64,000 bases of DNA from Lacibacter sediminis. Lineage in GTDB: Bacteria; Bacteroidota; Bacteroidia; Chitinophagales; Chitinophagaceae. Positions 45,095 to 60,553 of the stretch are shown piece by piece (the stretch's first letter is position 1; every line of letters begins with the position of its first letter). The notes beneath the pieces are model-generated. The model did no database searches and was not told the origin of the DNA. It saw nothing but the letters and a program-made list of their open reading frames with translations. Both the position numbers and the translations under genes were made by a program. The stretch covers positions 1,922,001 through 1,986,000 of the forward strand of contig NZ_CP060007.1 of the NCBI RefSeq assembly GCF_014168535.1. Direction: 5' to 3'.

Positions 45095-45877
45095 TCACAA
45101 AGATTTCTTCTGAAAAATAGCTTCTCCTGTTTGTTCGTTTATAGCCGACTTTAAAAGCGATGGATGCAGTTTCACCACTTCACCCACGATAATAATTGCA
45201 GGATTGCCAATGCCTTCGTAGGATGCTTTAAAGAAAATATCTTTTACTGTGCCAATCACCATCTTCTCATCTTTAGTAGTACCATTCTGAATAATGGCAA
45301 CAGGTGTATCGCTTTTGCCATGCGTTCTGAAAATATCCATAATGCCTTCGAGCTTACTCATGGCCATTAATATAATAACAGTAGCACTTGATTGTGCGGC
45401 TAATTGGATATCTGTTGATATCTCACCCGAACGGGTAGTTCCGGTTGTTACCCAAAAGCTTTCATTGATACCACGACAGGTGAGGGGAATCATTTGTGAA
45501 GCAGGTACAGCAATGGCACTGGAGATGCCGGGCACCAGTTCAACCTCCATTCCAGCCAGTCTTGCTGTTTCAATTTCTTCCTGGGCACGTCCAAACACAA
45601 ACGGATCGCCGCCTTTTAAGCGCACCACCACTTTATGTTTCTGGCCATACTCTACTATTAATGTATTGATCTCTTCCTGGGAAAGGGCATGGCAACCATA
45701 GCGTTTGCCCACAAAACGTTTGATGCAGTTGGACGAGGCATACTGCAGAAGTTCATCGTTGGCGAGTGCGTCATATAGTATCACATCAGCCTGCTCCAGC
45801 ATACGTATAGCTTTTATTGTAATAAGTTCCGGATCGCCTGGTCCAGCCCCAATAAGTAGCAATTTTCCCAGTTTCAT
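45095..45877 (-). CDS. cobA: Uroporphyrinogen-III C-methyltransferase
   Basis: A 260-residue cytoplasmic enzyme that methylates uroporphyrinogen III twice with S-adenosylmethionine, giving precorrin-2 for siroheme. Motifs: GAGPGDPELIT near residue 10, VVRLKGGDPFVFGRAQEE near 82, VPGISSAIAVPA near 115 and the TGTTR region near 142. It is the single-domain form, without a CysG-type oxidase/chelatase part, which must be encoded elsewhere. Its position facing nirB fits supply of siroheme for nitrite reductase. Confidence 0.95.
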   Translation of the reverse strand: MKLGKLLLIGAGPGDPELITIKAIRMLEQADVILYDALANDELLQYASSNCIKRFVGKRYGCHALSQEEINTLIVEYGQKHKVVVRLKGGDPFVFGRAQEEIETARLAGMEVELVPGISSAIAVPASQMIPLTCRGINESFWVTTGTTRSGEISTDIQLAAQSSATVIILMAMSKLEGIMDIFRTHGKSDTPVAIIQNGTTKDEKMVIGTVKDIFFKASYEGIGNPAIIIVGEVVKLHPSLLKSAINEQTGEAIFQKKSL

Positions 45878-45964: not shown

Positions 45965-46070
45965 TTTAATACTCTGCTGATAGTTGGGTTTGCCATAAAA
46001 AATATTAAATGATTAAAAATTATAATACGATTGTTTGCTACCATTGTTGTTACACTTAAACAATAAGATT

Positions 46071-48569
46071 ATGAAAGTGGTAGTAATTGGAAACGGCATG
46101 GTGGGTTACAAGTTTTGCGAAAAGCTTGTAAAAAAGAACATTGCCGGCAATATCTCCATCGTGGTTTTTGGAGAAGAAGTAAGACCTGCTTACGACAGGG
46201 TTCATTTAAGTGAATATTTCGCCGGTAAATCTGCCGACGATCTTTCCCTCGCTCCCAAAGAATGGTATACTGAAAATGGTATTGTATTACATCTTTCCGA
46301 TCCCGTGGTATCAATCGACCGGGAAAAGAAAACCGTACACTCACACGCAGGTATAACCGAAACTTACGATTACCTGGTCCTGGCTACAGGTTCTGCAGCA
46401 TTTGTGCCCCCGATTCCGGGAGTTGAAAAAGAAGGTGTATTTATCTACCGCACCATTGAAGACCTGGAACTGATGACCAAATGGGCAAAGAAATCAAAGA
46501 AGGGTGCGGTGATCGGTGGTGGCTTGCTGGGATTAGAAGCTGCGAAAGCCATGCTTGATCTGGGTGTTACCGATACGCAGGTAATTGAGTTTGCTCCACG
46601 TTTAATGCCCCGCCAGATAGATGATGCGGGTTCAAGATTATTACAATCGAAATTAGAAGACCTCGGTCTTACAATTCATACATCAAAAAATACCACGGCT
46701 ATAAATGGTGATGAAGCAATTGCCAGCATGAGTTTTTCTGATGATAGTTCTTTTGATGTTGACATGCTCGTGATCTCTGCCGGTATTAAACCAAGAGATG
46801 AACTGGCAAGAAATGCAGCAATTGAAGTTGGTCCACGTGGAGGAATAACCGTTAACGATAACTTGCAAACATCCGACCCTTTTATTTTTGCTATTGGTGA
46901 ATGTGCATTACATAAAGGAATGATCTATGGTTTGGTTGCTCCCGGTTACGAAATGGCCGAAGTGGTGGTGACTAATTTAACAGGAGGTGAAAAATCGTTT
47001 ACCGGTTTTGATATGAGCACCAAGCTAAAATTAATTGGTGTGGATGTAGCCAGCTTTGGCGATCCGTTTGTGAGTGGAGAAGGAATAAGAAGTATTGTGT
47101 TTGATGACAGTGTGAAAGGTGTTTACAAACGCATTAATGTAAGTGCCGATGGTAAAGAATTATTGGGCGGAATTTTAGTGGGTGATGCAGAGCAATACAA
47201 TATGTTGTTGCAAACCTGTAAGAACAAAGTGGTGTTGCCTCCAAATACAGAAGATGTTATTCTTGGTGCAAGAGGTGGTGAAGGTGAGGGTGGTGCCGGT
47301 GTTACAAGTTTGCCTGATGATGCAGTGATCTGCAGTTGCGAAGCTGTAACAAAAGGAGCTATCTGCGAATCAGTTGTATTGGGTTATGAAACTGTTGATG
47401 GCATTAAGAAATGCACCAAAGCAGGTACCGGTTGTGGTGGTTGTGTGCCAATGGTGAAAGACTTGATGTTGCATACCATGAAAACACAAGGCAAGGTTGT
47501 TCGTAATGTATTGTGCGAACACTTTGATTACAGTCGCCAGGAATTATTTGATCTCATCAAAATAAACGATCTGCGTACATACGATGCAGTGCTGGATAAA
47601 TTTGGTAAAGGTGATGGTTGCGAATTGTGCAAACCTCCTGTTGCATCGATCCTTGCAAGTTTGTGGAATGAAGTGATCCTGAAAAAAGGAAATGATACGG
47701 CACAGGATAGTAATGATCGTTTCTTAGCGAATATTCAAAAAGGTGGAACCTATTCTGTAGTTCCTCGTATTCCCGGTGGAGAAATTACGCCTGATAAATT
47801 AATTGTGATTGGACAGGTAGCGAAGAAATACAATCTCTATACAAAGATCACCGGCGGTCAACGTATTGATCTGTTTGGTGCACACTTAAGTGATCTTCCA
47901 AATATCTGGGAAGAATTAATTGAAGCTGGTTTCGAAAGCGGACATGCTTACGGTAAAAGTTTACGTACAGTAAAAAGTTGCGTTGGAAGTACCTGGTGTC
48001 GTTTCGGTTTGCATGATAGTGTAAGTTTTGCAATACGGGTTGAAGAACGCTATCGTGGTCTTCGTTCACCACATAAATTAAAAGGTGGTGTTAGTGGTTG
48101 CATCCGTGAGTGTGCTGAAGCACAGAGTAAAGACTTTGGAATTATTGCAACAGAAAAAGGCTGGAACCTGTATGTATGCGGCAACGGCGGTAGTAAACCT
48201 CAACATGCATTGTTACTCGCTTCTGATATTGATGAAGAAACATGTGTAAAGTATCTCGATCGTTTCTTAATGTTTTATGTAAAAACTGCTGATCCGTTAA
48301 CACGTACAGCTACATGGTTAAATAAGATGGAAGGTGGTATTGATTATCTGCGTTCAGTTGTTGTGCATGATGCATTAGGAATGAATGCAGAGTGGGAAGC
48401 GGCAATGGAAAACCATGTAAACACTTACGAGTGCGAATGGAAAGCTGCGATTGAAACGCCTGAATTACGTAAACGCTTTAATCACTTTGTAAACGCACCT
48501 GAAGTGAAAGATCCAACAGTTGTGTTTGATCCAATGCGTGAACAGAAGCGTGCGAAAGAATGGAAATAA
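46071..48569 (+). CDS. nirB: NAD(P)H-dependent assimilatory nitrite reductase, large subunit
   Basis: An 832-residue cytoplasmic enzyme reducing nitrite to ammonium. FAD- and NAD-binding domains occupy about 1-310 (GNGMVG at the start, GGGLLGLEAAK near 145). A BFD-like [2Fe-2S] domain follows with C421, C423 and GCGGC about 30 residues later. Then come the ferredoxin-like half domain and the siroheme/[4Fe-4S] domain with C637-x5-C643 and C677-x3-C681. The length is typical of NirB. ATG 46071 begins the canonical KVVVIGNGM; an upstream in-frame extension has no support. nirD follows 215 bases later, an unusually wide gap. Confidence 0.97.
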   Translation: MKVVVIGNGMVGYKFCEKLVKKNIAGNISIVVFGEEVRPAYDRVHLSEYFAGKSADDLSLAPKEWYTENGIVLHLSDPVVSIDREKKTVHSHAGITETYDYLVLATGSAAFVPPIPGVEKEGVFIYRTIEDLELMTKWAKKSKKGAVIGGGLLGLEAAKAMLDLGVTDTQVIEFAPRLMPRQIDDAGSRLLQSKLEDLGLTIHTSKNTTAINGDEAIASMSFSDDSSFDVDMLVISAGIKPRDELARNAAIEVGPRGGITVNDNLQTSDPFIFAIGECALHKGMIYGLVAPGYEMAEVVVTNLTGGEKSFTGFDMSTKLKLIGVDVASFGDPFVSGEGIRSIVFDDSVKGVYKRINVSADGKELLGGILVGDAEQYNMLLQTCKNKVVLPPNTEDVILGARGGEGEGGAGVTSLPDDAVICSCEAVTKGAICESVVLGYETVDGIKKCTKAGTGCGGCVPMVKDLMLHTMKTQGKVVRNVLCEHFDYSRQELFDLIKINDLRTYDAVLDKFGKGDGCELCKPPVASILASLWNEVILKKGNDTAQDSNDRFLANIQKGGTYSVVPRIPGGEITPDKLIVIGQVAKKYNLYTKITGGQRIDLFGAHLSDLPNIWEELIEAGFESGHAYGKSLRTVKSCVGSTWCRFGLHDSVSFAIRVEERYRGLRSPHKLKGGVSGCIRECAEAQSKDFGIIATEKGWNLYVCGNGGSKPQHALLLASDIDEETCVKYLDRFLMFYVKTADPLTRTATWLNKMEGGIDYLRSVVVHDALGMNAEWEAAMENHVNTYECEWKAAIETPELRKRFNHFVNAPEVKDPTVVFDPMREQKRAKEWK

Positions 48570-48784: not shown

Positions 48785-49132
48785 ATGATCGCAGAAAAAA
48801 CAATTACCTGGTTTGCCGCCTGCAGAGTATCAGATGTTCCTGCAAACGGTGGCGTGTGTGTGAAATACAACGACACACAGATTGCACTTTTCCATTTTAC
48901 AAGACGAGATGAGTGGTATGCCACACAAAACGAATGCCCGCATCGTCAGCAAATGGCGTTGAGCCGTGGCATGATCGGTACGCAAAACGAAGAGCCGAAA
49001 GTTGCCTGCCCCTTTCACAAAAAAACATTTTCACTGGTTACAGGCGAATGCCTGAGTGGCGATGAATGCGCTATTAAAACCTACGAGGTGAAAGTGGAAG
49101 AGGGCATGGTCTACATCGGTGTTGAAGATTAA
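48785..49132 (+). CDS. nirD: Nitrite reductase small subunit (Rieske type)
   Basis: A 115-residue Rieske-like protein that pairs with NirB. Both halves of the [2Fe-2S] ligand set are present: CPH near residue 49 and CPFH near residue 76. Many NirD proteins have lost these ligands, so this one may truly carry a cluster. It is cytoplasmic and of normal length. It lies 215 bases after nirB, with a 14-base dyad in the gap. Confidence 0.93.
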   Translation: MIAEKTITWFAACRVSDVPANGGVCVKYNDTQIALFHFTRRDEWYATQNECPHRQQMALSRGMIGTQNEEPKVACPFHKKTFSLVTGECLSGDECAIKTYEVKVEEGMVYIGVED

Positions 49133-54148: not shown

Positions 54149-55453
54149 ATGTCGCAAGCAACATTACAACAACCACTAAGCAAACTCAATATCTTTTCAT
54201 TGAGTGGTGTGCAAATGAGAACCTTCCATATTACCTGGCTTACATTTTTTGTTTGCTTTTTTGGATGGTTTGGATTAGCTCCTTTAATGCCAACCATTAA
54301 AGAAGACCTACATTTAGATAAGTCACAGATCGGAAACATTGTGATTGCATCTGTATCAGGTACCATCATTGCACGTTTGCTCATTGGTCGTTTGTGCGAT
54401 ACCTGGGGGCCACGGAAAACATACACTGTATTGTTATTGCTTGGTGCAATTCCGGTAATGGGTGTTGGCTTGGCACAATCATATACGTCGTTTTTGTTGT
54501 TCCGTTTAGCGATCAGCGTAATTGGTGCATCATTCGTGATCACACAGTTTCACACATCCATGATGTTTGCGCCAAACATTAAAGGAACAGCCAATGCAGT
54601 TGCTGGTGGTTGGGGTAATCTTGGTGGTGGTATCACCAACATGGTGATGCCGTTGATCTTTGCGGCCATTGTTGGTTTTGGTTATACCAAAGGCGAAGCA
54701 TGGCGTTATGCGATGATCGTTCCCGGTGTAATGATGTTGGTGGTTGCATTTTTGTATTTCCGTTATACAAAAGATACACCTGCCGGTAACTACGATGAAA
54801 TTCAACGTGAAGTAAAAGTAAAAACCAAAACTGATTACAGTGTGTTGAAAGACTGGAGAGTTTGGTCACTTGCATTAGCATATTCCGTTTGTTTTGGAAT
54901 GGAAATCACCTTCGACAATATTGCTGCACTTCACTTTGTGCAGGAGTTTAAATTATCACAAAGCAGTGCAGGATTCTGGGCTGGTGTGTTTGGCTTCATG
55001 AACATTTTTGCACGTGCACTCGGCGGCATCTTTGCTGATAAGGTTGGCAGAAAATATGGTATGCGTGGTAAAGGTTTATTACTTGCTGCTGTATTGTTGC
55101 TTGAAGGTGCAGGATTGATGTTGTTTGCGCAAGCCGGTTCATTTACGATGGCTATAATCTCCATGATCTCTTTTGCATTGTTTTTGAAAATGGCGAATGG
55201 TGCAACATATGCTATTACTCCCTTTGTAAATGAAAAAAATGTTGGATTGGTGAGTGGTATTGTTGGTGCAGGTGGTAATGTCGGCGGTATGTTGTTTGGC
55301 TTCCTGTTTAAAAGTAAAAACATTACATACGTTGATGCATTCGGTTATATCGGTATGATCGTAATGGGTGTGTCGTTATTGGTATTGGTAACAAGATTTA
55401 CGAAAAAAGAGAAAGTGGCAGAATTGAATGTGGCGTTAGAGAACGCAGCGTGA
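54149..55453 (+). CDS. narK: NarK/NrtP-type MFS nitrate/nitrite transporter
   Basis: A 434-residue protein with twelve predicted helices of the nitrate/nitrite porter family. Family features: FVCFFGWFGLAPLMP near residue 35, RLLIGRLCDTWGPRKTY (the MFS loop 2-3 motif) near 77, and the two nitrate-signature segments ANAVAGGWGNLGGG near 150 and VSGIVGAGGNVGGM near 370. It transports nitrate and/or nitrite across the inner membrane. It follows nrtD by 28 bases and precedes the reductase by 37, so it belongs to the same operon. Confidence 0.94.
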   Translation: MSQATLQQPLSKLNIFSLSGVQMRTFHITWLTFFVCFFGWFGLAPLMPTIKEDLHLDKSQIGNIVIASVSGTIIARLLIGRLCDTWGPRKTYTVLLLLGAIPVMGVGLAQSYTSFLLFRLAISVIGASFVITQFHTSMMFAPNIKGTANAVAGGWGNLGGGITNMVMPLIFAAIVGFGYTKGEAWRYAMIVPGVMMLVVAFLYFRYTKDTPAGNYDEIQREVKVKTKTDYSVLKDWRVWSLALAYSVCFGMEITFDNIAALHFVQEFKLSQSSAGFWAGVFGFMNIFARALGGIFADKVGRKYGMRGKGLLLAAVLLLEGAGLMLFAQAGSFTMAIISMISFALFLKMANGATYAITPFVNEKNVGLVSGIVGAGGNVGGMLFGFLFKSKNITYVDAFGYIGMIVMGVSLLVLVTRFTKKEKVAELNVALENAA

Positions 55454-55490: not shown

Positions 55491-58400
55491 GTGAAGGAAA
55501 CGAATGAACATACTATGGATCTGAACAGCTCAGGAAATACTGCAGCTAACCTTACCACCTGTTGTTATTGTGGAGTGGGTTGCGGTATTGTTACCAGTAA
55601 AGATAAATTGGGTCGTTTGCATGTGGAAGGCGATAAGAACCATCCTGTAAACAAGGGTATGCTTTGCAGCAAGGGCATGAATCTTCATTACACAGTGAAC
55701 GATCGCTCTGATCGGTTGCTTTATCCGGAGATGCGTTACAACCGTAACCAGCCCCGTCAACGGGTAACATGGGATACAGCTTTGGAACGCACAGCAAAAG
55801 TATTTGCAACACTCATTGAAAAGTATGGTCCTGATTCGGTTGCGTTCTATGCATCGGGACAATGTTTAACAGAAGAATATTATGTGATCAATAAACTCAT
55901 CAAAGGATTTATCGGCAGTAATAATATCGATACCAACTCACGTCTTTGCATGAGCAGTGCCGTGGTTGGTTATAAAATGAGTTTGGGCGAGGACAGTGTG
56001 CCAGTGAGCTATGATGATCTTGAACTGGCTGATGTAATTTTTGTGGCCGGTGCAAATCCTGCCTGGTGTCATCCCATTTTATGGAGAAGAGTGGAGGCAG
56101 CCCGTGAAAAAAATCCTGATCTCAAAATCATTGTCAGCGATCCACGTAAAACTCAAACATGCTCCATTGCCAATGTGCATCTGCAATTAAATCCGGGAAC
56201 GGATATAACGCTGCATCATGCAATAGGAAGAGTGTTGATCGAGAACGGCGATATTGATCTCGACTTTATTGCTAATCATGCAGAAGGCTTTGAAAAATAC
56301 CGTGATACTGTTTTTGAACGAACCATTGCAGAAGCAGCGATCATTTGCGGTGTTGATGAAAAAGATATTCGATTAGCAGCTTCTTATATTGGTAAAGCGA
56401 AAGGTTTCATCAGCATGTGGACGATGGGCTTGAACCAAAGTGTAATTGGTGTAAACAAAAACCTTTCACTCATCAACTTAAATTTAATTACTGGACATAT
56501 AGGAAAACCAGGCTCTGGTCCGTTATCGTTAACAGGTCAGCCAAATGCGATGGGTGGAAGAGAAGTAGGTGGCTTGTCGAATTTATTACCTGCCCATCGT
56601 GACCTTTTAAATCCCGAACATCGTGCTGCAGTAGAAAATTTCTGGGGTGTTGCCCCGGGAACGATCGCTGCGAAGCCAGGTCTTACTGCTACAGAAATGT
56701 TTGAAGCGTTGAATGATGGACGGTTAAAAGCCATCTGGATCCTTTGCACCAATCCACTGATCAGTTTGCCTGATGTGCGCATGGCTGAAGAAGGATTGAA
56801 GAAAGCAAAGTTTGTAGTAGTACAAGACATCAGCAATCGCCCCGAGACAATCAGGTATGCCGATGTGCTGTTACCAGCAGCATCATGGACCGAAAAAGAA
56901 GGTACCATGACGAATGCAGAGCGGCGCATCAGCTACTTGAATAAAATTATAGATGCACCGGGGGAAGCCTTGCCCGATGCTGAGATCATTTGCCGCTTTG
57001 CAAAAAAGATGGGCTTCAAAGGTTTTGATTACAACAGCTTCTCCGAAATTTTTGCAGAACATGTTGCACTCACTGCCGGTACCAATATCGACATGAGCGG
57101 ATTGAGTTATGAAGTTCTGAAAGAGAAACGTTCGGTTCAATGGCCGTATACTTCTTCATCAGAAAGCTATGGTACAAAGCGATTGTTCACTGATCGTAAA
57201 TTTCATACGCCTTCGCAAAGAGCCATCATTCATTCGTTCAATGATGAGAATCAATCAGAAAAATTAAGTCCAGATTTTCCATTGGTGTTAACAACAGGTC
57301 GCATCCGTGATCAGTGGCATACCATGAGCAAAACAGGAAAAGTAAATAAACTCAACAAGCATATTTCAGAATCGTTTTTGGAAATACATCCTGATGATGC
57401 GGCTGAACGTTCCATTAAAGAAAATGATCTCGTTGAAATTTTTAATGGCAGAGGTAATGTAAGAGTGAAAGCAAAATTCACAACCGATATTAAGAAAGGG
57501 GTTGTGTTTTTGCCGATGCATTGGGGTAAAGTATTGAACAGTGATTTGAACAGGGCGAATAACCTCACCAATAATTTAGTTGATCCGAAAAGTAAAGAAC
57601 CCGACTTTAAATTCTCTGCTGTTGAAGTGAAACTTCATAAGAAGGCAAAACAAAAAATAATTGTTGTTGGTGCCGGCGCAGGTGCCTGTGGTTTTGTACG
57701 CAGCTACCGCATGATCAATACAGATGATGAAATAGAGATTTTCAGCAAAGAAGATTTTCCGTTTTATAATCGTGTATTGTTGCCCGATTATATCAGTGGT
57801 ACGCTGCAATGGCAGAACCTGGTGAAAATGACTGATGCAGAAGAATATGATTACAATATTAAACTGCATCGTGGTGTAAGCATTGCTGAAATTAACAGGG
57901 AACAAAAAACAGTAACCGATAGTAAAGGAAATATTCATCACTACGATGTGTTGTTATTGGCAACAGGCAGCCGTGCAGCGATGTTGCGTGATGTGCCTGC
58001 GATGCAGGGCATCTTTACCATGCGTAGCAGAACTGATGCGGATAATTTCAAGTATCATGTTGATCCTGCAAAGGGAAAAGTAGTGATCGTTGGCGGTGGT
58101 TTGCTGGGTATTGAATTGGCTGCATCACTTCGTGAAGTAGGAGTGGAAGTAACCATTGTGCAACGTATCTCCCGTTTAATGGATCGTCAGCTTGATCCGT
58201 TGGGAAGCCAGTTGCTGCATGAAGAGTTAACCGATAAAGGAGTTGATATTTATTACAACGATGAGATCGAACGTTTTCTTGGTGATACAACAGTTACCGG
58301 TATTCGTTTAAAGAGTGGTTTGATGATCGATTGCCAGGCGATTGTAATTGCAATTGGCACTGTGCCGAATATTGAAATTGCAAAAGCAGCCGGTATTGAT

Positions 58401-59060
58401 TGTAAGCGTGGAGTTGTGGTGGATGAATACCTGCAAACAAATGATCCAGCTGTATTTGCCATTGGTGAAATTGCAGAGTTCAAAGGTTTTCTTTATGGTA
58501 TTACTGCTGCAGCTGAACAACAGGCAGAAATTGTCGCACGCTATCTAGGTGGCGATATTTCCAACTACTATTCAGGTTCTTTGCTCATGAATATTTTGAA
58601 AATGCATGGCACAGAACTTTGTTCATTGGGTGAAGTGGAATGTCCGGATGATCCTGCTTACGAAGAAGTGGTGTTTATTGATAAAGCCAAACGCTATTAC
58701 AAAAAATGTATCATTCACAATGATCGTTTGATCGGTGCTATTTTAATTGGTGATAAAAGCGAATTCCTTGAATACCGCAACCTCATTGAACAAAAAATGG
58801 AGTTGAGTGAAAAACGTTTACAGTTATTACGTTCAGGTAAAGCACCGGAACCTGTCATTGGAAAACTGGTGTGCAGTTGTAACAATGTAGGTGAAGGAAA
58901 TCTCATCAACAAAATAAACGAAGGTTGTAAAGATCATTTGCAGTTATGTCAACTCACAGGTGCAGGTATGGGTTGTGGCAGTTGCAGGCCCGAAGTAAAA
59001 ACGATCCTTGAAAACAACCTTCATTCAAATCTAAAAGAAACATCACTGGTAGAAAAATGA
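55491..59060 (+). CDS. nasA: Assimilatory nitrate reductase fused to FAD/NAD(P)H reductase and BFD-type [2Fe-2S] domain
   Basis: A 1189-residue cytoplasmic enzyme. Residues about 20-715 are a molybdopterin (bis-MGD) nitrate reductase of the NasA/NarB type: [4Fe-4S] ligands C24, C27, C31, C59, the Mo-binding Cys in NSRLCMSS (C153), and a dinucleotide-binding C-terminal part with LTTGRIRDQWHTM. Residues about 720-1080 are a complete pyridine-nucleotide-disulfide oxidoreductase (GAGAGACGF near 725, GGGLLGIELAAS near 870) like NasB/NirB. Residues about 1125-1170 are a BFD-like domain with C1128, C1130, C1162 and C1165. The fusion would pass electrons from NAD(P)H through FAD and Fe-S to Mo in one chain. 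The start is GTG 55491, with ATG 55515 as an alternative. The next gene overlaps by 4 bases. Confidence 0.93.
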   Translation: MKETNEHTMDLNSSGNTAANLTTCCYCGVGCGIVTSKDKLGRLHVEGDKNHPVNKGMLCSKGMNLHYTVNDRSDRLLYPEMRYNRNQPRQRVTWDTALERTAKVFATLIEKYGPDSVAFYASGQCLTEEYYVINKLIKGFIGSNNIDTNSRLCMSSAVVGYKMSLGEDSVPVSYDDLELADVIFVAGANPAWCHPILWRRVEAAREKNPDLKIIVSDPRKTQTCSIANVHLQLNPGTDITLHHAIGRVLIENGDIDLDFIANHAEGFEKYRDTVFERTIAEAAIICGVDEKDIRLAASYIGKAKGFISMWTMGLNQSVIGVNKNLSLINLNLITGHIGKPGSGPLSLTGQPNAMGGREVGGLSNLLPAHRDLLNPEHRAAVENFWGVAPGTIAAKPGLTATEMFEALNDGRLKAIWILCTNPLISLPDVRMAEEGLKKAKFVVVQDISNRPETIRYADVLLPAASWTEKEGTMTNAERRISYLNKIIDAPGEALPDAEIICRFAKKMGFKGFDYNSFSEIFAEHVALTAGTNIDMSGLSYEVLKEKRSVQWPYTSSSESYGTKRLFTDRKFHTPSQRAIIHSFNDENQSEKLSPDFPLVLTTGRIRDQWHTMSKTGKVNKLNKHISESFLEIHPDDAAERSIKENDLVEIFNGRGNVRVKAKFTTDIKKGVVFLPMHWGKVLNSDLNRANNLTNNLVDPKSKEPDFKFSAVEVKLHKKAKQKIIVVGAGAGACGFVRSYRMINTDDEIEIFSKEDFPFYNRVLLPDYISGTLQWQNLVKMTDAEEYDYNIKLHRGVSIAEINREQKTVTDSKGNIHHYDVLLLATGSRAAMLRDVPAMQGIFTMRSRTDADNFKYHVDPAKGKVVIVGGGLLGIELAASLREVGVEVTIVQRISRLMDRQLDPLGSQLLHEELTDKGVDIYYNDEIERFLGDTTVTGIRLKSGLMIDCQAIVIAIGTVPNIEIAKAAGIDCKRGVVVDEYLQTNDPAVFAIGEIAEFKGFLYGITAAAEQQAEIVARYLGGDISNYYSGSLLMNILKMHGTELCSLGEVECPDDPAYEEVVFIDKAKRYYKKCIIHNDRLIGAILIGDKSEFLEYRNLIEQKMELSEKRLQLLRSGKAPEPVIGKLVCSCNNVGEGNLINKINEGCKDHLQLCQLTGAGMGCGSCRPEVKTILENNLHSNLKETSLVEK

Positions 59061-60553
59061 AAAACAGTTCAACCATAAAGATCAATTTCCGTGGCGGTAT
59101 TATATCGCCGGGTGATCTGTACAATATATTGGTCGCTGCTACCAAAGTGGGCGTTCGTCATGTGAGTTTTGGTTTGCGTCAGCAATTGCTGATCACTGTT
59201 GCTGTTGAAGACAGGCAAACGTTTTTGGATGAATTGGATCTTATCGATATTGCTTATGAAGTAGGGACGGTGCAATTTCCAAACATCGTCAGCTCATATC
59301 CTGCAGAAGAAATTTTCATCAATAACACCTGGTTGAGCGAAGGTGTGTACAAAGATATTTTTGATGGTATCGATTATCAGCCAACGTTAAAAATAAATGT
59401 AAGCGACAGTAACCAGAGTTTCACGCCCATGCTTACCGGTAATATCAACTGGGTGGCTGCAAAGGAGTCTGCACATTTTTGGCATTTGTTCATTCGTTTT
59501 CCCAAGACGAATATCATTTTCGAATGGAATCAGCTGGTGTACACCAATGATGTTGCAAAAGTGTCGAAGGAAATTGAAGAGATCATTCTTGATCATCGTG
59601 ATCGTTTCTCAGATAATACCGAAGCGCAAGGCGAAACATTGATGAAGCTGGTACACACTGATCGTTATATTACAAAACCTGTCGAAAAGCCCGTGCAATT
59701 ACCTGCATTCAATCTTCCTTATTACGAAGGTTTCAACAGGTACAACAATAATAAATACTGGATGGGTGTGTACAGGCGTGATGAGTTGTTCAGTGTTGAT
59801 TTCCTGAAAGAAGTGTGCAAGCTTTGTTTGGAAACCAAGATCGGGCAATTGTGTTCAACACCATGGAAAAGTATAATTGTAAAAGGAATTGACGAAAAAG
59901 ATAAACTTAAGTGGAGTTTGTTGCTGGATAAATATCATCTTAATGTTCGACATGCAGCTAACGAATTAAATTTCCAGGTGGAAGATGATTGCCGTGAAGG
60001 ATTGGCATTGAAAAACTATTTGGTGAAGCAATTGAATAATGAAGACACCCGCACATTTGGTCTTTGCTTTGGTATCAAAACAAGAAGCAAGAGCGAAGTG
60101 TTCAGTAGTATACTGGTGAAACGCAAACCGTTGTTAAAACTATTCGGTTGGGAATTGTTTTATGTATATGATATTCTTTGTGCAAACGATTTTAATCCTA
60201 ATGCACGAACGGGATTTGTGTTTAGCAGCAATAATCCAAAATTCTTACTCTCAGAACAATTGCGTCGTTCGGTGAATGCATTTTACCAGAACCGTGAAGG
60301 CAAGCTCGCTCTTGTAGAAAAAGTGTTACCGGTTAAAAAAGAAGTGGAGAAGAAACCCGCAGCACAATATGTTTATCAATGTACTGATTGCTTAACGGTG
60401 TATGATGAAACAGTGGGCGAACCTGAAAACAATATTGCAGCAGGTGTATCATTCGAATCACTGCCGGCAGATTATTGTTGCCCTTTATGTGATGCAGGCA
60501 AAGAAAGTTTTACAAAAATTGAAAAATCGAAACTGGGTTTACAAACCGTTTAA
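59057..60553 (+). CDS. Sulfite/nitrite-reductase-like protein with C-terminal rubredoxin domain
   Basis: A 498-residue cytoplasmic protein whose ATG overlaps the stop of the nitrate reductase (ATGA). The first 420 residues resemble the ferredoxin-like repeats of siroheme sulfite/nitrite reductases (GVRHVSFGLRQQLLITV near residue 32; CSTPWKSIIVKG near 270). The four-Cys siroheme/[4Fe-4S] pattern (C-x5-C...C-x3-C) is not found; the closest cluster is C-x2-C-x7-C before TPW. Residues about 438-490 are a rubredoxin with C442, C445, C475 and C478. It may be an electron donor or assembly partner of the fused nitrate reductase. The function is not established. Confidence 0.8.
   Translation: MKNSSTIKINFRGGIISPGDLYNILVAATKVGVRHVSFGLRQQLLITVAVEDRQTFLDELDLIDIAYEVGTVQFPNIVSSYPAEEIFINNTWLSEGVYKDIFDGIDYQPTLKINVSDSNQSFTPMLTGNINWVAAKESAHFWHLFIRFPKTNIIFEWNQLVYTNDVAKVSKEIEEIILDHRDRFSDNTEAQGETLMKLVHTDRYITKPVEKPVQLPAFNLPYYEGFNRYNNNKYWMGVYRRDELFSVDFLKEVCKLCLETKIGQLCSTPWKSIIVKGIDEKDKLKWSLLLDKYHLNVRHAANELNFQVEDDCREGLALKNYLVKQLNNEDTRTFGLCFGIKTRSKSEVFSSILVKRKPLLKLFGWELFYVYDILCANDFNPNARTGFVFSSNNPKFLLSEQLRRSVNAFYQNREGKLALVEKVLPVKKEVEKKPAAQYVYQCTDCLTVYDETVGEPENNIAAGVSFESLPADYCCPLCDAGKESFTKIEKSKLGLQTV

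Follow-up and report, generated by a model that had tools for sequence, protein, structure and literature searches.

The siroheme-[4Fe-4S] centre is the feature by which sulfite/nitrite reductase (Sir/Nir) folds are recognised. In Paracoccus, NasB has an NADH site from which the Rieske protein NasG carries electrons to the nitrate and the nitrite reductase alike, and this is thought to avert nitrite build-up, as described in two published accounts (PMC5424462, PMC4724949). Here we analysed a 64,000-nucleotide stretch of Lacibacter sediminis DNA (the window), in which a gene at 59057-60553 encodes a protein of 498 amino acids that we call SirRd. It is predicted to be a two-fold protein of the NIR/SIR fold that lacks siroheme ligands and carries a C-terminal rubredoxin. 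This gene, like every window feature given with coordinates below unless stated, lies on the forward strand. Its start codon ATG (59057) and the stop codon TGA of the nitrate reductase gene nasA (59058-59060) share the letters ATGA, the 4-base overlap that the original prediction for this locus had reported. The host genome consists of 5.1 Mb in one contig. It belongs to the Chitinophagaceae (Bacteroidota), where Lacibacter luteus and L. cauensis are its closest named relatives. Among the matches listed in a literature search of titles and abstract beginnings, which did not cover subscription papers or preprints, no description of SirRd was found.

Fold and cofactor ligands of SirRd

SirRd was examined with an alignment of 30 relatives (A1; a 31st sequence, L053, is cut at the edge of the fetched region and was left out) and with a profile of residues 1-430 (A2) made from 25 SirRd sequences, the other six of the 31 being near-copies or cut rows and therefore excluded. 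Comparison of A2 with 32 two-fold sulfite/nitrite reductases by hhalign gave 97.1% with an expect value (E) of 5.5e-11 over 397 columns, in which SirRd profile columns 12-417 (window residues 6-417) were matched to reductase columns 79-529. The controls stayed at background: ten column shuffles reached at most 0.4%, reversal gave 0.8% and six unrelated neighbour families reached at most 1.1%. This bears out the two-fold Sir/Nir architecture proposed in the original prediction. NirB, which shares the half-domain, matched the SirRd profile at 27% over 73 columns only, and Pfam found in SirRd neither the N-terminal NADH/FAD module nor the siroheme domain of NirB-type proteins. SirRd as the C-terminal half that NirB lacks in the fusion was ruled out, as it aligns with two-fold proteins and hardly with NirB. 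An AlphaFold2 model built on three rows (the window protein, L037 and L038, the last two being 86% and 85% identical to it) had a mean predicted local distance difference test score of 36 and a predicted template modelling score of 0.22. Because of this low confidence, the fold assignment rests on the profile comparison.

The half-domain family NIR_SIR_ferr (PF03460) matched SirRd alone at 22.4 bits, slightly under the Pfam cut-off of 24. The first half-domain occupies 59060-59239 (residues ~2-61) and contains the invariant G39-x-R41-Q42. The second, at 59792-59908 (residues ~246-284), is weak in the window protein alone (E 0.36) and exceeds the cut-off in relatives. PF03460 was matched by all 30 aligned relatives at E<=1, the best at 1e-17, and ten hand-picked relatives scanned singly all passed the cut-off with two stretches each. 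For none of the 30 did the Pfam matches include PF01077, the siroheme/4Fe-4S domain. Of the two domain families that the original prediction had named for a search, NIR_SIR_ferr was therefore recovered, with the window copy under the cut-off, and the siroheme domain was not.

The C-x5-C...C-x3-C ligand motif was found in none of the 30 relatives, in agreement with the earlier claim that the siroheme ligands are missing. The 32 reference reductases had been selected by this Cys motif, and their 32/32 motif count is given by construction and is not a result. Along the full-length alignment, an 11-column gap in SirRd takes in the two Cys of C-x5-C. Of the C-x3-C pair, the first Cys lies opposite column 343, which is variable, and the second opposite a 3-column gap. 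The same genome also codes for a sulfite-reductase-like protein with intact ligands, and R41, which aligns with the Arg of its TTRQ motif, is present in 30/30 relatives. The Arg of the NRN motif is lost and its Asn is kept (N76, 30/30), and in the RKFK motif the first Lys is variable (K in 12 and R in 5 of the 30) and the second is K112 in 27/30. The anion-binding Arg and Lys residues near siroheme are here presumed to be those of E. coli SiR. In the second half-domain, C257 and T268-P269-x-K271 are invariant (30/30), and C254 is found in 28/30, being replaced by Ser in the two closest relatives of the window protein. These cysteines form a near-invariant C-x2-C at residues 254-257 (59816-59827), and extra Cys occur at 260 (11/30) and 266 (17/30). 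In total, 33 columns are invariant among the 30 relatives. Collectively, these results identify SirRd as a predicted homologue of two-fold sulfite/nitrite reductases that has lost the siroheme/[4Fe-4S] ligands.

The rubredoxin domain lies at 60374-60511. PF00301 matched residues 440-485 with E 1.8e-16, and the four Cys that had been noted in the original prediction are at 442, 445, 475 and 478. All four are kept in 29/30 relatives, and PF00301 was called in 27/30. Searches of Pfam and NCBIfam found no cofactor motif in SirRd besides rubredoxin. The PDB matches of the whole protein (best 60 of 67) were rubredoxins or rubredoxin-like stretches, and the same was true of the 30-row profile (best 60 of 68). 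In L066:9069-10445 and L045:8993-10438, the loop between the Cys pairs is shortened and the four Cys are kept; Pfam calls no rubredoxin in either. Separately, L067:7831-9330 and L068:9089-10522 contain open reading frames (ORFs) of 499 and 477 amino acids with an N-terminal rubredoxin.

Selection on SirRd

The ratio of nonsynonymous to synonymous substitutions per site (dN/dS) between the window SirRd gene and two Lacibacter copies was 0.069-0.075 at dS 1.2-1.5, and 0.058-0.065 for the Sir part alone. The two Lacibacter copies compared with each other gave 0.058 at dS 0.62. Overall, the dN/dS of SirRd was 0.05-0.09, indicating purifying selection and thus a maintained pseudoenzyme family, and SirRd being a pseudogene was ruled out. 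The adjacent nasA is under stronger constraint (dN 0.037 at dS 0.86). The original prediction had described a decayed enzyme; this dN/dS, together with the 33 invariant columns, does not support that description.

Distribution and co-occurrence of SirRd with NasA and NirB

In the window, SirRd follows a fused nitrate reductase, NasA-NirBn (55491-59060, 1189 amino acids), in which NasA (4Fe-4S, molybdopterin) is joined to the N-terminal NADH/FAD/BFD [2Fe-2S] module of NirB. We searched 395 Bacteroidota genomes, public plasmids and viral contigs, and made one single-protein scan of genome contigs, which, with SirRd as the query, led to two Lacibacter loci. Some match to SirRd occurred in 124/395 Bacteroidota genomes, and the Sir body was covered in 29, each with E 1.6e-53 or better. 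The remaining matches, among those listed (E to about 2.5e-7), fell within residues 357-498, mostly at the rubredoxin end. Fused NasA-NirBn was found in 33/395 genomes and full-length NirB in 28/395. SirRd and fused NasA occur together in 28 genomes, and these are the same 28 in which NirB was found. SirRd is missing from 5/33 genomes with fused NasA. The proposed co-occurrence with fused nasA thus holds in 28/29 SirRd genomes. In the 29th, G126, a Sir body lacking the rubredoxin lies at the start of a contig, and searches of this genome for fused NasA (E<=1e-100) and for NirB (E<=1e-60) found neither; its copy (L040:273-1556) is probably a remnant. These genome counts do not represent independent events.

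SirRd lies downstream of nasA and on the same strand in 29/29 loci holding both genes, with a spacing that ranges from a 157-base overlap (when the earliest possible start is used) to 954 bases in L066, where one ORF, read as a nucleotidyltransferase, lies between them. In two genomes (G190, G154), NirB is on a different contig from SirRd, and in a third (G312) it is ~22 kb away, and therefore linkage alone does not explain the retention of SirRd. A siroheme methyltransferase relative was present in 10/30 fetched SirRd neighbourhoods and in 3/3 plasmid cassettes. Large plasmids of Spirosoma, Hymenobacter and Persicobacter (L120, L121, L122) bear a cassette of SirRd, fused NasA and NirB, and 'rubredoxin' is the sole name that SirRd relatives carry in two annotated plasmid records. 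The NirB of the Hymenobacter plasmid is in two overlapping ORFs (L121:1009-3512), from a frameshift or a sequencing error. No SirRd was found in the viral contigs.

The presence of SirRd in 28/28 NirB genomes and its absence from 5/33 fused-NasA genomes indicate that its tighter partner is NirB or the NasA-NirB pair. The original prediction had tied SirRd to nitrate reductase. That tie stands in so far as the gene is in the nitrate reductase operon in 28/29 genomes; nitrate reductase alone, however, is probably not the partner. Together, these results show a pattern broader than one locus, with SirRd predicted to be a conserved pseudoenzyme family tied to nitrate assimilation by NasA and NirB.

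The nitrate cluster in the window

The cluster runs in the order SUMT, NirB, NirD-like, porin, NrtA, NrtB, NrtC, NarK, NasA-NirBn, SirRd, MobA (opposite strand), MOSC and MoaA. NasA-NirBn was named by domain hits, NirB, NirD, NarK and SUMT by annotated relatives, and the remainder was read from the sequence. SUMT, a uroporphyrinogen-III C-methyltransferase for siroheme supply, is on the reverse strand at 45095-45877. It is followed by the large subunit of an NADH-dependent siroheme nitrite reductase, full-length NirB (46035-48569), whose relative is annotated nirB, and by a NirD-like Rieske protein (48785-49132) with CPH...CPFH in its sequence and a relative annotated nirD. The NarK-like nitrate/nitrite transporter is at 54149-55453. 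In another genome (G091), NrtC is split over two ORFs (L039:15995-16852).

The FAD, NAD and BFD motifs are intact in 35/35 fused NasA sequences, as read by eye in the alignment, which suggests that fused NasA can probably take electrons directly from NADH. With this NADH entry of its own in NasA, SirRd would more likely link than supply. SirRd as the only electron entry to NasA was ruled out by the same intact motifs.

A second layout of nitrate assimilation without SirRd

The five genomes with fused NasA and no SirRd are G219, G050, G008, G155 and G179 (loci L072, L073, L074, L075 and L076), and full NirB was not found in any of them. Beside their nasA they have a two-fold NirA-like siroheme reductase with intact Cys pairs, a flavodoxin and a flavin/NAD reductase. 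Pfam scans called the siroheme reductase in 5/5 loci, the flavin/NAD reductase in the four loci checked for it and the flavodoxin in the one checked, and a flavodoxin is at the corresponding place in 5/5. Fused NasA-NirBn with these three proteins is predicted to be a second Bacteroidota nitrate-assimilation layout. The NirA-like proteins of G050 and G008 exceed the NCBIfam cut-off for CobG, at 346 and 343.7 bits, and the model may therefore misname them precorrin-3B synthase.

In a NasA tree with 35 fused sequences and three that are not fused, the five without SirRd form one group with support 98/96, suggesting that the swap was one event. The 30 other fused NasA group together with weaker support (88/93). 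Families f1, f10 and f24 are scattered among the SirRd-bearing NasA, which suggests that the cassette moved between lineages and that SirRd was kept.

Possible roles of SirRd

An electron-carrier or scaffold role, as first suggested for this protein, may plausibly apply to SirRd. Since NasA has NADH motifs of its own, SirRd tracks the NirB version of the cluster, and NasG of Paracoccus offers a precedent, we tentatively propose, at a little under an even chance, that SirRd is an electron-transfer and docking adaptor for the NasA-NirB pair and not a nitrite-reducing catalyst. The Sir-like body would dock on the NirB-type flavin/[2Fe-2S] module, which is on both NasA-NirBn and NirB, at the place usually taken by the siroheme domain. 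The tethered rubredoxin would then relay electrons, or balance their flow, between NasA, NirB/NirD and the flavin module, and nitrite would be reduced at the rate of its production. Docking, electron relay and nitrite hand-off by SirRd are inferred. With more reserve, we consider it possible that in Bacteroidota the siroheme-reductase fold, stripped of its cofactor, now serves solely to couple nitrate reductase to nitrite reductase by redox transfer, docked on flavin modules of the NirB type.

Several observations weigh against this proposal. The NirD-like Rieske protein already encoded in the cluster could fill the role of NasG, and both reductases carry their own NADH module, so that an extra carrier is not strictly needed. 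The rubredoxin is shortened in 2/30 relatives and absent in 1/30. The split between fused NasA with and without SirRd occurs once on the NasA tree, which makes it weaker than the counts suggest, and the tree flags an odd letter make-up in seven rows, including all five without SirRd. Among conserved positions of fused NasA, 12/159 in the NirB-like module and 14/294 in the NasA part show residues never seen in the clade without SirRd; the excess is slight, and no clear docking patch on fused NasA is predicted. As for the fold, an earlier hhalign comparison with just five NirA-like proteins gave 34% and covered one half-domain. A search of PDB sequences with a profile of residues 1-430 gave five matches at E<=10, the best at E 0.33; none was credible, and none was a sulfite/nitrite reductase.

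Among the rivals, siroheme delivery to NirB is the strongest, given the exact match in occurrence between SirRd and NirB. SirRd would then be a maturation factor whose Sir-like body binds siroheme or a precursor via the retained N-terminal Arg/Lys and passes it to NirB, while the rubredoxin assists with redox or metal chemistry. The 28/28 match with NirB, the absence of SirRd from the five genomes with a NirA-like reductase in the nitrate cluster, the retention of R41 (30/30) and K112 (27/30), and the siroheme methyltransferase relative near SirRd in a third of the neighbourhoods and in every plasmid cassette are all consistent with this. However, the SirRd gene comes after nasA and not nirB, and the same genome has a sulfite-reductase-like protein with intact ligands, for which we know of no comparable helper. 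Nor is the NirB of other phyla known to need such a factor. We regard a maturation role as unlikely.

Similarly improbable is a role for SirRd as a subunit that gives structure to a complex of NasA-NirBn and NirB or channels nitrite within it, with a rubredoxin site that is chiefly structural. The conservation of the Sir body, including R41 and K112 as possible anion-site residues, would fit such a subunit, as would L066 and L045, which retain the four Cys and lose the rubredoxin loop, but the Pfam-called rubredoxin in 27/30 relatives argues for redox use. Still more doubtful is a new enzyme in which the Sir fold, with another cofactor (for example near C254-x2-C257 and TPWK), reduces or detoxifies nitric oxide or hydroxylamine leaked by NirB. 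C257 and T268-P269-x-K271 are indeed invariant in 30/30, and flavorubredoxin, a nitric oxide reductase, has a C-terminal rubredoxin that matches that of SirRd, but C254 is Ser in the two closest relatives, and Pfam and NCBIfam recognise no cofactor motif beyond rubredoxin. Finally, SirRd is very improbable as a cassette passenger without an essential role. G126, which keeps a Sir body without rubredoxin and in which the searches found neither fused NasA nor NirB, would fit a passenger, but the dN/dS of 0.05-0.09, the 33 invariant columns and the presence of SirRd in 28/28 NirB genomes argue against it.

Comparison with known systems

A conserved family that has the fold and from which the centre is deleted, in 28/28 sampled NirB Bacteroidota, suggests a second, non-catalytic use of the Sir/Nir fold. 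It also makes SirRd a named component of Bacteroidota nitrate assimilation, so far called 'rubredoxin' in two annotated records.

SirRd resembles CysI/NirA (PF03460 + PF01077) in its order of half-domain, body, half-domain and body, in the 397 aligned columns, and in keeping the TTRQ Arg and the NRN Asn. Unlike these enzymes, it has no C-x5-C stretch, no C-x3-C and no PF01077 match, and a rubredoxin is added. CobG (precorrin-3B synthase, TIGR02435), which retains a [4Fe-4S] cluster, is weakly matched by 12/30 SirRd relatives, the best at E 8.3e-6. This match runs through the second half-domain in 7/10 singly scanned relatives, that is, in all that matched, and SirRd stays far under the CobG cut-off of 234.8 bits, the highest of the ten scoring 18.3. 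Flavorubredoxin likewise has a C-terminal rubredoxin on a larger body, but that body is flavodiiron, whereas that of SirRd is Sir-like. With the Rieske proteins NasG and NirD, as the published accounts describe them (PMC5424462, PMC4724949), SirRd shares being a redox protein encoded beside nitrate and nitrite reductases. In contrast to them, it has a rubredoxin and not a Rieske domain, borne on a Sir-like body of ~420 residues and encoded together with a NirD-like protein.

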